Below, piece after piece: positions 41,835 through 51,200 of a DNA stretch of 64,000 nt. Below the pieces are notes generated by a model. It made no database searches, was not told the DNA's origin, and saw nothing but the letters and a program-made list of their open reading frames with translations. Numbering within the stretch: the stretch's first letter is position 1; the number at the start of each line of letters is the position of its first letter. The translations under genes were made by a program, and so were the position numbers. The DNA is from Paenibacillus humicola (GTDB lineage Bacteria; Bacillota; Bacilli; Paenibacillales; Paenibacillaceae): assembly GCF_028826105.1 (NCBI RefSeq), contig NZ_JAQGPL010000001.1, forward strand, positions 1,142,501 through 1,206,500. The letters run 5' to 3'.

Positions 41835-42302
41835 TTATTTGCCGCCTTTGCTGCCGCCCGACTTGCGGCCGCCGGACTTGTGATCGCCGCGGGACCCTTT
41901 CGAGCCGCCGGACTTGTGATCGCCGCGGGACCCTTTCGAGCCGCCGGACTTGTGATCGCCGCGGGACCCTTTCGAGCCGCCGGACTTGTGATCGCCGCGG
42001 GACCCTTTCGAGCCGCCGGACTTGTGATCGCCGCGGGACCCTTTCGAACCGCCGGACTTGTGGTCGCCGCGGGATCCTTTCGAGCCGCCGGACTTGTGGT
42101 CGCCGCGGGACCCTTTCGAGCCGCCGGACTTGTGGTCGCCGCGGGATCCTTTCGAGCCGTCCGACTTGTGATCGCCGCGGGACCCTTTCGAGCCGTCCGA
42201 CTTGTGATCGCCGCGGGACCCTTTCGAGCCGCCGGATTTGCGGTCTTTTTTGTCGTCTTTATGGTCGCCGCCCAGCGCAAACCCTTTTTTCGTTTTCGCC
42301 AT
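41835..42302 (-). CDS. CotG-like serine/lysine repeat protein (10 x 12 residues)
   Basis: The 155-residue protein starts MAKTKKGFALGGD and then has ten copies of SKGSRGDHKSGG (two variants with DG), ending RKSGGSKGGK. It is strongly basic with regular serines, like the phosphorylated regions of CotG and CotB. It lies beside a CotH kinase gene, so I infer a spore-coat substrate of it. GAGGGAGGA precedes the ATG by about 9 bases. The other frame over the same DNA also stays open because of the 36-bp periodicity, but it lacks a ribosome site. Confidence 0.82.
   Translation of the reverse strand: MAKTKKGFALGGDHKDDKKDRKSGGSKGSRGDHKSDGSKGSRGDHKSDGSKGSRGDHKSGGSKGSRGDHKSGGSKGSRGDHKSGGSKGSRGDHKSGGSKGSRGDHKSGGSKGSRGDHKSGGSKGSRGDHKSGGSKGSRGDHKSGGRKSGGSKGGK
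41868..42227 (-). repeat. 36-bp tandem repeat, ten copies, inside the CotG-like gene
   Basis: Ten head-to-tail copies, near-identical (variation at a few third positions and at GGC/GAC codons), without spacers. Each encodes 12 residues. Length change by slippage or recombination is expected. Confidence 0.93.
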
Positions 42303-42434: not shown

Positions 42435-42597
42435 ATATTACAAATTGTCCCCCATGATAGATTTCACGGGGACAATCAATGGAGGGATGATGCCGCAGCA
42501 TATAAGAAGGAAACGCTATTAGCAGGCAGCGGAAGCGCAAGCGGCGCTTCGAATGGAGTCGAGTCGTCATTCTATTACGTTCTGGAGGGATTTGTTC

Positions 42598-43413
42598 ATG
42601 ACCATCGGGGAAAAACGAGTCAAAGCTGCATGGGGCGGCGGCGGACATCCGTACGGTTACTTCGGCGGAGCCGAAACCGCGCCGGAAATGACTTCGCCGG
42701 GAATGGCGTCGCCGGGGCACAAGTCGCACGACGCGAAAAAGCCGACGCGGGGCACCCGCGGAACCCAAGGCAGCCGCGGCGGAAAAAAAGACTATTTGGA
42801 CGCGCTTGTCGGCACGCTGGTGAAAATAAACCGCGGCGGTCCGGATTCCGTGCAAGGGCGGCTGGTTGCCGTGCACAAAGGATATACCGTCTTGTCGACG
42901 TCGAACGGAACGGTTTACATCAATTCCTATCATGTCAAAAGCATTACGCAGGTAGAAAAGAAGAAAAGCCGCGGCCGCAAACAATCGCATCATTATATTA
43001 TGGCCGACAGCTTCGAAGGCGTTCTGCACAAGCTGGTCAAACAGTTTGCTCAAATCAACTGGGGCGGGCCCGAACGTATGGACGGCTTCATCGCCGAGGT
43101 CGGCGGCGATTCGCTGCTACTGATCGTCAATAACGAATTCGTTCGCATTCCGCTTCAGCACATCAGAACGATCAAGCATTCCGGCAAATACGCCAGTAAC
43201 GGCAGCCAAGGAAGCCGAGGATCGAAAGGCTCGAAGGGCGACAACTCCGGCGGCGGTTCGAAAAGCGGCGGATCGAAAAGCGACGGATCGAAAAGCGGCG
43301 GATCGCACGGCAGCTCCGGCAACAAAGGAAAGAGCAGCAAAGCGAGTGCGCGCGGCGAGACGTCCAAAAAAACGAAGCGTTCGGCATTCTCCCGCCGTCT
43401 TGGCAAAAAGTAA
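42598..43413 (+). CDS. CotB-like spore-coat protein with Ser/Lys/Gly-rich tail
   Basis: The 271-residue protein has a Gly-rich N-terminus (GGGGHPYGYFGG), two similar beta-type segments (about 62-120 and 135-195, each with a LVGTLVKINRGGP or ...LVKQFAQINWGGP start), and a basic tail (about 200-271) full of GSKS, GSRG and KSSK units. B. subtilis CotB has the same order: repeated N-terminal domain, then a serine-rich tail phosphorylated by CotH. GGAGGG lies 8 bases before ATG 42598. It is divergent from the repeat protein and CotH genes. Confidence 0.82.
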   Translation: MTIGEKRVKAAWGGGGHPYGYFGGAETAPEMTSPGMASPGHKSHDAKKPTRGTRGTQGSRGGKKDYLDALVGTLVKINRGGPDSVQGRLVAVHKGYTVLSTSNGTVYINSYHVKSITQVEKKKSRGRKQSHHYIMADSFEGVLHKLVKQFAQINWGGPERMDGFIAEVGGDSLLLIVNNEFVRIPLQHIRTIKHSGKYASNGSQGSRGSKGSKGDNSGGGSKSGGSKSDGSKSGGSHGSSGNKGKSSKASARGETSKKTKRSAFSRRLGKK

Positions 43414-43696: not shown

Positions 43697-44993
43697 TACA
43701 ATCACGCTCGCAGCCGCCGCGTTTGCCGTTGCGGCTGCGGCTGTCCTGCTCCTGCGGCGGCCGGGAGGAAGGGCTCCTTTGTGGCCCGCCTTTCCGCTCG
43801 CCGCTTTCTTTTTAGCCGCGGCTCCGCTCGGCGGAACCGGCGCAAACCTGCAGCAGCTGGCAGGGCCGGCCGTTATCGTCTTGTCGGCCTTTCTGATGGC
43901 GGCCGCGCTCGAGAGTCTCGGGATGTTCCGTTATGCCGCCGGGAATATCGTCGAGTTCAGCCGCGGGTCCGGGCTGCGCCTGTATTGGCTAATCGCCTTG
44001 TTCTGCTTTTTGACGACGCTGTTTTTCAGTACCTACGTCAGCGTGCTGGCAGCAATGCCGGTCATTCTGCAGATCGGCCGAATGCTCGAGCTGAGCGACC
44101 GTCAGCTGCAGCCGTATTTGATCAGCGGCGCGCTCATCGGCGCAGCGGCCGGCGCCCCGGCAGGCGCTGCCGGCATCACGAATCTGATCGTGCTCGAAAT
44201 GACAGGCCGGCAGTTGAACGATTATTCGGAGCTGACGATGATTCCCGCCGCCGCGGCGGTATTTGCGGTCGCCGGTCTGCTTTACGTCTTGTACCGGGGG
44301 TGGCTGCCGCGCCGGATTGCGGCGCAGGCTCCGCTTACGCCGGACGATGATACCCTTGCCGTTAATTGGCGCTTGTTCCGGCTGTGCCTGTTCGTTGTCG
44401 TCACCGCGCGGGCCGGATTCTATATCAGCTCCGGCTACGGGGTGCCGGCATGGTGGTTTGCGCTGGCGGGCGCGCTTGCGCTGATCGTTCCCGCCATGAC
44501 GAAAGCAAGCTCCGGCTTGCGTTTCTATACGGCCGGAATCCCCTGGCATATTCCTTTGTTTGCGTTCGGTGCTACCTTGATTGCGGATGAATTGCAGCGG
44601 ACCGGCGTCCTTCGTTTGCTCGCCCGCGGGCTTGCGCAGGCGGCCGCCTTGGGCGATTTCTCCGCCGCGCTGGCCGCAGGCGGATTGCTGGCGGCGATGT
44701 CGGCCATCGCAAACGAGCTTCCGGTACTCCTGATCGGAGCGTCGGCGCCGGCGGGCGCAGGGGCGGATCCGGCCTCGCAGCTGCTGTTTGCGGCCCGCAT
44801 GATGGGCGGCAACATCGGCGGTCTGATGACCCCGCTCGGCTCGCTCGCCATTCTGATTTGGTTTGCCGCGCTGCGCCGTTATAAGATCAAGCTTTCGTGG
44901 GCGGCGTATATGAAGGCGGCGGCGGTATCCGTTCCGGCAGGCTTGCTGGCCGGCCTGATCATGTTGTATGCCTGGACGCAAATTATCGGATGA
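43689..44993 (+). CDS. ArsB/NhaD-type ion-transporter-superfamily permease
   Basis: The 434-residue protein has about 11-12 TM helices and two inverted halves with small-residue signature stretches (ALIGAAAGAPAGAAGITNLIV and MMGGNIGGLMTPLGS), typical of ArsB/NhaD/SLC13 carriers. The ion is unknown; no arsR or arsC lies nearby. ATG 43689 starts inside the preceding small gene. It lies between two CotB-like genes, which hints at a spore-related role, but this is only context. Confidence 0.8.
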   Translation: MDDTITLAAAAFAVAAAAVLLLRRPGGRAPLWPAFPLAAFFLAAAPLGGTGANLQQLAGPAVIVLSAFLMAAALESLGMFRYAAGNIVEFSRGSGLRLYWLIALFCFLTTLFFSTYVSVLAAMPVILQIGRMLELSDRQLQPYLISGALIGAAAGAPAGAAGITNLIVLEMTGRQLNDYSELTMIPAAAAVFAVAGLLYVLYRGWLPRRIAAQAPLTPDDDTLAVNWRLFRLCLFVVVTARAGFYISSGYGVPAWWFALAGALALIVPAMTKASSGLRFYTAGIPWHIPLFAFGATLIADELQRTGVLRLLARGLAQAAALGDFSAALAAGGLLAAMSAIANELPVLLIGASAPAGAGADPASQLLFAARMMGGNIGGLMTPLGSLAILIWFAALRRYKIKLSWAAYMKAAAVSVPAGLLAGLIMLYAWTQIIG

Positions 44994-45725: not shown

Positions 45726-45882
45726 CTGCACCGCACGTTTGTCCGGGAAATGTCCATTCGGATTAGCCAAATCCTAACTTTATAAATAGGTGGAGTTGTG
45801 GTAACGTTTACGGTAGCTGGCTGTGAGGGAAACAATTGGCACGGATATCGGCATTTATCGACATAAAGTACGGTGAACAGGT

Positions 45883-47064
45883 ATGCTTGACAAAGTAAGC
45901 GATCAGGAGTTATGGGTGATTTATTTCAAAAGCATCGAAGGAGGGATCGATCTTCAGTTTATCCGGATGATTGAAGCGGAATTAAAGCGGCGTAATTTGT
46001 TTGAACGGGACAAGCGGGAGTGGAAGCTATTGAAAAGTTTTGGGAATTCGGAGCTGGATTTTGCCCAATTGATCAAATACTCGTTGGATACCATTTTCGT
46101 CCTTCATCAATTTAAAGTCGTCTATGTGAACAAGGCCGCCTTTGACCTGCTCGGACTCCAATATCCCGACCAGATTATCGGCGAGAGCTTCACCCGCTTT
46201 TTGCATCCGGATTATCACGGCGTGTTTCGCGAATCGGTGGAATTGGCTTACGGCGGAGAGGTAACCGATTGCCTTGAGCAAAAGATGTTCAAGGCGGACG
46301 GCGAGCTGATCGACGTCGAAGTGATGGCCGCGCCGTATGTGCTGGATGACAACCGCCTGGCGCAAATCCGGGTACGCGACATTACGAACCGAAAAAATGC
46401 GGAAGGCCGGCTGGCGAACCTGGAGAAGCTGTCCTCCATCGGCCAAATGGCGGCAGGCATCGCCCATGAAGTCCGAAACCCGCTGACCACCGTGAAAGGG
46501 TTTTTCCAGCTGCTGCAGAAAGAACTGAATCATGCGTATTTTCCGATCATCGTCGAGGAGCTCGACAACGCGATCAAGACGCTGAACAATTTGCTGCAGG
46601 TGGCCAAGCCCGATTTCGACAACGAGAACAACGTAACGATCAATTTGTGCTCGGAGCTTGATTCGCTTATTTTTTTGTTCCAGGAGAAGCTGTACAACGT
46701 CACCGTCACGAAGCTGTTCCAGCATACGGACAAGGAAATCGTCGGCAAGAAAAATCTGATTTTAAAAGCGTTTTTTAATTTGATCAAAAATGCGGTGGAA
46801 GCCATCGAAGGAAAAGGCGAGCTCGTCGTCGAGCATTATTTCCGGAACGGCACCATCCATGTGAAAATACAGGACTCGGGCGTCGGCATTCCGAAGGATC
46901 AGATCCGCATGCTCGGCACTCCGTTCTTCTCCACGAAGACGGAGGGCACCGGCATGGGACTGACCCAGGTGTTTACGACGATTCACGAGCACGGCGGGCA
47001 CGTCAACGTCGAAAGCGAGCTGGGCAAAGGAACGACCTTCTATATCGAGCTCCCCGCCAAATAA
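45883..47064 (+). CDS. Sporulation-type histidine kinase with N-terminal Sda-like domain
   Basis: The 393-residue kinase is soluble. Residues 1-42 (VSDQELWVIYFKSIEGGIDLQFIRMIEAELKRRN) match the helical hairpin of Sda (B. subtilis: LSDELL...[24 protein letters not shown]), the checkpoint protein that binds and inhibits KinA. A PAS domain follows (about 60-170), then HisKA with H195 (AGIAHEVRNPLTT) and HATPase_c (N-box FNLIKNAVEAIE, GTGMGL). The kinase core resembles KinA/KinE, which feed the Spo0F-Spo0A phosphorelay. The built-in Sda-like hairpin could be an autoinhibitory or dimer element. The ribosome site (ACAGGT) is weak, so the level may be low. Confidence 0.88.
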   Translation: MLDKVSDQELWVIYFKSIEGGIDLQFIRMIEAELKRRNLFERDKREWKLLKSFGNSELDFAQLIKYSLDTIFVLHQFKVVYVNKAAFDLLGLQYPDQIIGESFTRFLHPDYHGVFRESVELAYGGEVTDCLEQKMFKADGELIDVEVMAAPYVLDDNRLAQIRVRDITNRKNAEGRLANLEKLSSIGQMAAGIAHEVRNPLTTVKGFFQLLQKELNHAYFPIIVEELDNAIKTLNNLLQVAKPDFDNENNVTINLCSELDSLIFLFQEKLYNVTVTKLFQHTDKEIVGKKNLILKAFFNLIKNAVEAIEGKGELVVEHYFRNGTIHVKIQDSGVGIPKDQIRMLGTPFFSTKTEGTGMGLTQVFTTIHEHGGHVNVESELGKGTTFYIELPAK

Positions 47065-49158: not shown

Positions 49159-49404
49159 GTGGCTGATGCGGATGTAGAGCTTGCGCTGCAAGAGGAACCG
49201 GATGCCGTATCAGCTAAACAGCTATCTTTGTCCATGCGTGTATTGGAAGATGAAATCTACGCGCTGCGGATTAAGATGGAACAGTCATACCTCGAAGAAG
49301 CGTCCTTCAATTCGGATCTCGTCATCGATTTGAGCCGAAAACTGGATGTGAAAATTAATGAATATATGCGTTTTCTGCGTTGGCGCTCCAAGATGACGCA
49401 GTAG
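49159..49404 (+). CDS. Spo0E-family aspartyl-phosphate phosphatase
   Basis: The 81-residue protein has the two-helix Spo0E hairpin: LEDEIYALRIKMEQSYLEEASFNSDLVIDLSRKLDVKINEYM, where LSRKLD matches the SQELD signature that attacks Spo0A-P. The Gln-Glu pair is changed to Arg-Lys, so activity should be checked. The start is GTG 49159 with AAGGAGGGA just upstream. A TATAAT (49082-49087) lies about 75 bases before it. It stands between kinase genes that likely charge the same phosphorelay, so it would oppose them. Confidence 0.85.
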   Translation: MADADVELALQEEPDAVSAKQLSLSMRVLEDEIYALRIKMEQSYLEEASFNSDLVIDLSRKLDVKINEYMRFLRWRSKMTQ

Positions 49405-49673: not shown

Positions 49674-51200
49674 ATGAGTGAAGAGACCTCGGATCGCAAT
49701 CTGGTTACGCCAAAGCGAGAGGTCCGGTTGATTGGACTTCCCAATCCGCATGAGTTGGAGGAGAACGGAAAAACGGCCGAGCTTTACCGGATTTTGATCA
49801 GTGAGCACTTGGCCCCGGCCATCGTGCTGAACGAACGGCTTGACATTTGCCATTTGACAGGAGGCGCGCAGGAGCTGCTGGCGCCGGCCGACGGCCAGTT
49901 CGGCCGGAACATCCGCCAGGTGCTCGAGCCGCAGCTGGCGGATGCGATTTCGGCCGTCGTTCAGGAGCTGAGATCCGGCCAGCCTCGCGTCGTGCGGACG
50001 CTTGACGGGATGGACCGTCTGCCGGACGGGCTGAGATCGATGCAGCTCGTCGTCAAGCCGTTGTCATCCGTCAACCGGCAGTATGCGGCCTGCACGCTCG
50101 TTCAGTTCGAACCGGCGGAACTCGCGAATCCCGGCGCGGGCGAGGAGCTTCAGGCGGCGGCCGAAATGCTGCAATTGACGTATGCGATGGAGCGGAGCCC
50201 CAGCATGGTCCAGATTTGCAACGCCGAAGGCGAAGTGATTTTCGCCAACCGAAAATATTACGAGACGACCGGCTGCAGCTCCGATGAAATCGCGGGGAAG
50301 AAGCTGTCCGAGCTATACGACTGGAAAGCGGCCGACTTGTCGTTCGACGACATATGGAGCCGCTTGAAGGCCGGCGAAACGTGGGAATGCGAAGTACCCG
50401 GCTTTTTGAAGAACGGCGGGGTGTATTGGGAAAAGGCGAAGCTGCAGCCGATTAGACGGAAGGGCGGCATCCGCAGCTTCATGAAGCTGTCCGAGAACAT
50501 TACGGAGCGCAAGCAGACGGAGGAGATGCTCCGCAAATCGGAGATGCTCTCGGCCATCGGTCAGCTGGCGGCCGGCATCGCGCATGAGATCCGCAATCCG
50601 CTGACGTCGCTGAAAGGCTTCACGAAGCTGATGAAGGAAAATAACAAGCGCGATTATATCGCGATTATGCTGGCCGAGCTCGAACGGATCGAACAAATCG
50701 TGAGCGAGCTGCTCATTCTGGCCAAGCCGCAGCCGTCGGAATTTGCGCGAACGTGTCTGGACGATGTCCTGCGCGACGTCGTCATGCTGCTTGAAGCCCA
50801 GGCGATCATGAACGATATCCAGATCGAGCTTGATTTGGCCGGCGGCCCCTGGCATGTCAGCGGCATAAAAAACGCGCTTAAGCAGGTATTTATCAACCTG
50901 CTCCAGAACGCAATCGAAGCGATGAAGAACGGCGGCGGGATCCGCATCCGGACGGAGCTCGGGGACGACGGGCTCGTCTGGACGACCGTGCGCGACAGCG
51001 GAGACGGCATCCCGCCGGAGAAGCTGGACAATCTCGGCCAGCCGTTTTATTCGACGAAGGCGAAGGGGACGGGACTGGGGCTTACGATCAGCGGCAAAAT
51101 CGTCGACCACCACCACGGCCGGCTCGAATTCGAAAGCGAGCTGGGACGAGGAACGACGGCCCGGGTCGGGCTGCCCGCTCTGGACGTTTCCCGGGAATAA
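49674..51200 (+). CDS. Sporulation-type PAS histidine kinase
   Basis: The 508-residue soluble kinase has a PAS-like domain (about 40-150), a second PAS (about 168-280, ICNAEGEVIFANRKYYETTG), HisKA with H304 (AGIAHEIRNPLTS) and HATPase_c (N-box INLLQNAIEAM, GTGLGL). This is the KinA/KinE layout; no TM segment is present. With the Sda-type kinase and the Spo0E-like phosphatase nearby, it probably feeds Spo0F. The ribosome site is weak (GGAAGA about 12 bases upstream of the ATG). No response regulator is encoded next to it, as is usual for sporulation kinases. Confidence 0.9.
   Translation: MSEETSDRNLVTPKREVRLIGLPNPHELEENGKTAELYRILISEHLAPAIVLNERLDICHLTGGAQELLAPADGQFGRNIRQVLEPQLADAISAVVQELRSGQPRVVRTLDGMDRLPDGLRSMQLVVKPLSSVNRQYAACTLVQFEPAELANPGAGEELQAAAEMLQLTYAMERSPSMVQICNAEGEVIFANRKYYETTGCSSDEIAGKKLSELYDWKAADLSFDDIWSRLKAGETWECEVPGFLKNGGVYWEKAKLQPIRRKGGIRSFMKLSENITERKQTEEMLRKSEMLSAIGQLAAGIAHEIRNPLTSLKGFTKLMKENNKRDYIAIMLAELERIEQIVSELLILAKPQPSEFARTCLDDVLRDVVMLLEAQAIMNDIQIELDLAGGPWHVSGIKNALKQVFINLLQNAIEAMKNGGGIRIRTELGDDGLVWTTVRDSGDGIPPEKLDNLGQPFYSTKAKGTGLGLTISGKIVDHHHGRLEFESELGRGTTARVGLPALDVSRE

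Follow-up and report, generated by a model that had tools for sequence, protein, structure and literature searches.

An Sda-homologous hairpin fused to the N terminus of a PAS histidine kinase in Paenibacillus, with a candidate second translation start

When DNA replication is disturbed, sporulation kinases are normally held in check by Sda, a very small protein well known as an inhibitor in trans whose amount reports DNA replication. In the window, by which we mean the whole 64,000-nucleotide stretch of Paenibacillus humicola DNA analyzed here, an Sda-homologous segment forms the first domain of a histidine kinase. In Bacillus subtilis, sda is driven by DnaA, as stated in passages of two papers (PMC7430163, PMC11925247). 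The first of these, a review, identifies L21 and F25 as the part of Sda that contacts KinA; for how Sda sits on KinB we draw on part of another review (PMC8534201), and an excerpt from a further paper describes the clearance of free Sda by proteolysis, which releases its kinase (PMC9430884).

The fused copy resembles free Sda (PF08970; PDB entries 1pv0, 3fyr, and 3d36 chain C) in sequence family, in its predicted two-helix hairpin, in F25, and mostly in L21, but differs in being a kinase domain, in having no upstream DnaA boxes, and at positions 8 and 19. Like KinA and KinB, on which Sda acts in trans (3d36), the kinase is of the HisKA-HATPase type with Spo0F-type specificity residues, and its closest solved relative by sequence is the KinB of 3d36, an entry that also contains Sda. 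Unlike them, it carries its putative inhibitor covalently, has a single PAS domain and no transmembrane part, and has a shorter stem loop (by about 5 residues relative to KinB). The whole kinase body is shared with unfused PAS kinases of 344 to 350 aa from Bacillaceae (P0013 and others; at most 57 percent identity), which lack the Sda segment (10 proteins scanned, 8 of them unfused). A further parallel is CheA, described in part of PMC11005335 as one kinase gene with two starts that give long and short forms. As far as that part of the source goes, the likeness lies in one histidine kinase gene with two starts (here predicted) and a short form without the N-terminal part; unlike in CheA, the part missing from the predicted short form would be an inhibitor. 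A literature search covering titles, abstracts, selected passages, and few subscription papers turned up no description of a kinase that contains an Sda domain. The architecture is nevertheless visible in databases, since precomputed Pfam rows give PF08970 together with HisKA in several proteins.

An Sda-homologous hairpin on an intact kinase

The open reading frame (ORF) at 45883 to 47064 of the window encodes a 393-aa Sda-PAS-HisKA-HATPase_c kinase, all four domains of which score above their Pfam cut-offs. Its product starts MLDKVSDQELWVIYFKSIEGGIDLQFIRMIEAELKRRNLF, and its parts are as follows:

45883..47064, + strand: Sda-PAS-HisKA-HATPase_c histidine kinase, 393 aa, stop counted (ORF, Pfam, orthologues)
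45872..45876, + strand: GGTGA, Shine-Dalgarno-like, for the first start, ATG at 45883-45885 (sequence; duplex energy −7.6 kcal/mol)
45889..46008, + strand: Sda domain, residues 3-42 (Pfam, PDB sequences, AlphaFold2, profile comparison)
45901-45942 and 45952-45990, + strand: predicted Sda helices, residues 7-20 and 24-36 (AlphaFold2)
46009..46056, + strand: linker, residues 43-58, with pLDDT below 50 at residues 43-55 (AlphaFold2)
46078..46383, + strand: PAS domain, residues 66-167 (Pfam)
46441..46614, + strand: HisKA domain, residues 187-244, with His195 at 46465-46467 (Pfam)
46753..47058, + strand: HATPase_c domain, residues 291-392 (Pfam)

The fusion of an Sda-homologous hairpin to the kinase N terminus is real and conserved. 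The initial annotation had aligned residues 1 to 42 with an Sda motif, which the ORF fits letter for letter, and had proposed a search with the Sda profile. In that search the window protein exceeded the curated PF08970 cut-off by a small margin (23.9 versus 22.6 bits; E = 3.6e-5), with residues 3 to 42 matching profile positions 2 to 41 of 45 (Pfam). Fused orthologues scored up to 37.6 bits, and two close ones fell just under the cut-off (G014, 21.5 bits; P0002, 21.8 bits). A six-frame search of the genome with the Sda profile returned the fusion locus at 27 bits (E = 2.7e-5). When residues 1 to 60 were compared with PDB sequences by phmmer, the top three matches were Sda entries (3fyr, E = 0.00043; 1pv0, 0.00048; 3d36 chain C, 0.0031; next match, 0.51), and 17 of 37 residues were identical to B. 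subtilis Sda by manual count on the phmmer alignment. Rather than a separate protein of about 46 residues, Sda here makes up the first 42 of 393.

Profile comparison was extended to the fused set, which consists of 14 intact sequences in three subclades. Their N termini aligned with 33 rows of free Sda (31 loci plus two PDB pieces) at an hhalign probability of 98.5 and a score of 61.4; 100 column shuffles reached at most 16.6, and the reversed profile 14.1. The free-Sda profile recovered every fused segment (14/14, 19.4 to 42.2 bits). Sda matches to E = 0.1 were listed for 67 genomes; those in frames of at least 300 aa were four orthologues and one partial match of 15.9 bits. The hhalign shuffles and this scarcity of Sda matches in long frames rule out a chance resemblance to Sda.

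The initial annotation had staked the Sda claim in advance on a two-helix hairpin, and such a hairpin is what AlphaFold2 predicts: helices at residues 7 to 20 and 24 to 36 in the window protein (10-residue blocks with pLDDT 86 to 92) and at 6 to 19 and 23 to 35 in a second family member (blocks with pLDDT 79 to 88). The linker that follows is predicted to be disordered in both models (pLDDT under 50), and the pTM of 0.47 to 0.48 is too low to place the domains relative to one another. A Foldseek search with the model ranked LOV-histidine kinases first, with 3d36 at ranks 23 and 27.

The PAS, HisKA, and HATPase_c domains are accompanied by intact catalytic residues. His195, Asn299, and Asn303 are invariant in 60 aligned kinases, and the G-box residues are at least 90 percent conserved. 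The kinase is an orphan, with a receiver domain in 0 of the 6 neighboring ORFs scanned. Its specificity residues after His195, mapped by hand from the H-box, read TTGFQL, of the TAGFQL type; the same TTGFQL residues are given in Table 1 of PMC6136694 for a kinase whose phosphorylation of Spo0F was demonstrated. On this sequence evidence, Spo0F is the putative target of the kinase. The Spo0B profile SPOB_ab (PF14682) was not found in the genome, and among 14 control genomes it matched B. subtilis alone.

A conserved candidate start in the linker

Within the linker lies a second potential translation start, as follows:

46016..46020, + strand: GGGAG, internal Shine-Dalgarno sequence, 9 nt 5′ of the TTG (duplex energy; GAG codon and spacing in 9/9 loci)
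46030..46032, + strand: in-frame TTG at residue 50, putative second start (cross-locus comparison, shuffles)
46030-47064, + strand: predicted Sda-less product of the TTG start, 344 aa

At 9/9 loci from all three subclades, the linker contains a TTG that is in frame with the kinase and preceded by a strong Shine-Dalgarno sequence; both the GAG codon and its distance from the TTG are identical throughout. Duplex energies at these nine sites range from −7.9 to −10.8 kcal/mol, compared with −7.6 for the first start in the window. A scan of all in-frame ATG, GTG, and TTG codons with a duplex of −7.5 or better detected no further aligned column with a site in three or more loci; the internal site itself occupies two columns, 48 and 49, owing to a one-column offset in the alignment of subclade C. 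When synonymous codons were resampled, the probability of the site was 0.017 to 0.069 per locus, for a site that was noticed before testing and for loci that are related, not independent. All of 8 loci share the site (G084, a near copy, was excluded), whereas in 400 synonymous shuffles no more than 5 did; when each subclade was represented by a single locus, a shared site arose in 9 of 2,000 shuffles, never in the linker. An RNA fold across both starts was unremarkable (z = −0.14), and a promoter scan gave nothing convincing.

The TTG lies where unfused relatives begin, and the 344-aa short product equals them in length. One unfused relative (L101) also has TTG codons behind a strong Shine-Dalgarno sequence at about the same place. 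Given the match in length and the L101 site, the linker probably represents the ribosome-binding site of the ancestral kinase, still in use, and the one gene may also yield an Sda-less kinase from the internal TTG. The same L101 site means that descent could explain the presence of the motif, so that the TTG and its Shine-Dalgarno sequence might be a fossil of the unfused start, or else an accident of codon choice, with the long protein alone being made. We give this reading a sizeable minority chance. Against it stand the persistence of the site across three subclades, despite largely saturated synonymous sites between them, and the low per-locus probability under resampled codons. If the internal start is used, the locus would be a case of gene fusion preserving an old start as a second product.

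A tethered brake and its alternatives

How the fused segment departs from free Sda bears on what it might do. All 14 fused sequences have F at position 25; at position 21, 10 have L, 3 have I (the window protein among them), and 1 has T. Position 19 is hydrophobic in 31/31 free copies, whereas every one of the 14 fused copies has E, G, or S there; at position 8, 23/31 free copies carry L, M, or V, and the 14 fused ones carry E, Q, or D. A charged residue or Gln occupies position 26 in 5/14 fused sequences and position 28 likewise in 5/14. Judged from the alignment, the KinA contact pair is thus kept while part of the Sda surface is altered. The Sda part is the fastest-changing domain of the fused kinase: identical residues between the window and G014 number 25/42 in Sda, 80/113 in PAS, and 61/63 in HisKA, and dN/dS of the Sda part is 0.19 to 0.46 in 5 of 10 pairs, dS not being computable in the other 5.

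Upstream DnaA boxes likewise separate the two classes of gene. An exact DnaA box, TTATNCACA, occurs within 315 bases upstream of 25 of 31 free loci (mostly the best-scoring Sda copy per genome) versus 0 of 9 fused loci, and free loci average 1.74 exact boxes upstream versus 0.03 in each of two downstream controls. Boxes with one mismatch number 0 to 2 per fused locus; as these were the only matches, DnaA boxes at the fused gene were rejected.

We favor a tethered Sda brake combined with two translation products as the best reading of these data, and give the mechanism as a whole about even odds (probability about 0.5); within it, we infer both inhibition in cis by the fused hairpin and use of the internal start. 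A soluble, unfused PAS-HisKA-HATPase orphan kinase would have gained an N-terminal Sda hairpin, most simply once, with the old ribosome-binding site of the kinase probably read through in frame to become the linker. On its flexible tether, the hairpin would most likely be a weak, constant inhibitor of the HisKA stem in its own dimer, lowering autophosphorylation or access to Spo0F until a PAS signal or a competitor displaces it. The fused Sda would no longer track DNA replication via DnaA boxes, and such a brake could not be removed by proteolysis without losing its own kinase. Internal initiation most likely also gives the Sda-less kinase, in which case the ratio of long to short product would set the brake strength of the dimers. 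A fuller version, in which one gene supplies braked and unbraked kinase, the inhibitor was captured by read-through of a ribosome-binding site that was kept as a working start, and translation sets the self-inhibited fraction in mixed dimers independently of DnaA, is offered tentatively, as rather less than an even bet.

Counting in favor of the tethered-brake reading are the Sda homology, the predicted hairpin with its loose linker, KinB as the closest solved relative by sequence, the retention of positions 21 and 25, the dN/dS values of the Sda part, the TTGFQL residues, the conserved internal site, and the lack of exact DnaA boxes at the fused loci. Counted against it are the changes at positions 8 and 19, the fast change of the Sda part, the shorter stem loop, and the missing match to SPOB_ab. 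Two of these points, the rapid change of the segment and the loss of hydrophobic residues 8 and 19 in all fused copies, would also fit a hairpin that no longer inhibits and has become a sensory or dimer-forming N-terminal module adapted to its own PAS kinase. We regard this as unlikely, as F25, Y13, D6, E32, and R36 are the same in 14/14 fused copies. About as unlikely, in our view, is a hairpin that acts in trans, docking on other sporulation kinases or competing with free Sda for them and thereby regulating sister kinases instead of its own. Such a role is suggested by the largely kept contact residues 21 and 25, by a second PAS kinase gene 2.6 kb downstream of the fused gene, and by the coexistence of two free sda-like genes; the changes at positions 8 and 19 argue against it, and the tether would give a high local concentration near the kinase's own stem, which favors action in cis. 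A natural covalent Sda-kinase would show how a replication checkpoint can become a fixed threshold, and structural biologists could use it as a ready-made 1:1 complex to ask whether inhibition is steric or allosteric.

Distribution, origin, and surroundings

The fused kinase is rare. It was detected in 6 of 394 family genomes and in 5 of 296 order genomes, the window's own included, for 10 distinct genomes in three subclades across both samples (scoring covered the best 4 or 6 candidates in each genome). The carriers identified by name are P. xerothermodurans, Paenibacillus sp. H1-7, P. doosanensis, Paenibacillus sp. P25, and Cohnella sp. JJ-181. A kinase-body tree built without the Sda columns placed all 14 fused rows in one clade (SH-aLRT 100) together with two short records and the unfused, long-branched P0015; the other unfused relatives, mostly 340 to 370 aa, fall outside. 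A single gain of the fusion is the simplest reading, unproven because the tree as drawn needs 2 label changes. By their annotation, three records (P0005, P0007, and P0008) lack the Sda segment.

Free Sda was found in at least 378 of 394 family genomes and at least 163 of 398 class genomes (among the matches listed), and this wide spread indicates that Sda was added to the kinase. The initial annotation had also asked whether a separate sda gene exists, and two free sda-like genes are present in this genome; the fusion is thus an addition to the checkpoint and not a substitute for it. Of the earlier reading, an Sda-homologous hairpin carried in cis on an orphan kinase with intact catalytic motifs stands. 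Its alternative, that Sda arose from a kinase domain, has nothing in its favor besides the resemblance itself and was rejected as scarcely credible, given the wide spread of free Sda and a fusion confined to one small clade among unfused kinases. A simple motif screen of 5 unfused loci, one of them with about 300 bases upstream, revealed no free sda beside the kinase as a prefusion stage. A search with residues 1 to 46 of P0004 returned P0004 itself as the sole match among 2 candidates; because it reached so few, unrelated Sda fusions may exist unseen.

Several minor observations concern the sda genes themselves. The free sda of this genome (L001, 1474-1617, − strand) is preceded, within 300 bases, by two exact DnaA boxes and two more with one mismatch. 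The second sda-like gene (L002, 1483-1848, − strand; a frame of about 120 aa) has one exact box upstream and is flanked by ORFs resembling HPr and ClpP (named by eye). Free sda is multiplied in parts of the family, and one genome (G332) has six Sda matches, every one in a short frame. All 16 sampled genomes of genus g7 (G027, G400-G414) are without an Sda match, the sole 16 of 394 (among the matches listed). The fused gene is frameshifted in the Sda part in P25 and in the PAS part in G080, both at single-base runs (L059 near 4985; L076 near 1453-1525), through sequencing error or decay.

Sporulation-control genes cluster in this part of the window, in that the fused gene is followed by a Spo0E-like gene and then by the second PAS-HisKA kinase gene (49674-51200, + strand):

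49159..49404, + strand: neighboring Spo0E-like protein, 81 aa, outside the fusion (PF09388, 42 bits)

An AsnC-type regulator and an aminotransferase (the latter named by eye) lie upstream of both genes. None of the window's neighboring genes was found around the other fused loci (1.5- to 5-kb flanks), and in G014 about 53 kb separate the kinase from AsnC. Of 14 same-genus relatives, 10 have an ORF like that at 44968 no more than 1.5 kb upstream of AsnC, with no kinase there; in the 4 of those 10 that were inspected, another Gln-rich ORF sits between the two. Elsewhere in the window, an ORF at 41835-42302 (− strand) is built from repeats that contain SGGSKGSRGDHK-like segments; the ORF beside it, at 42553-43413, has similar Gly/Ser/Lys-rich tails.
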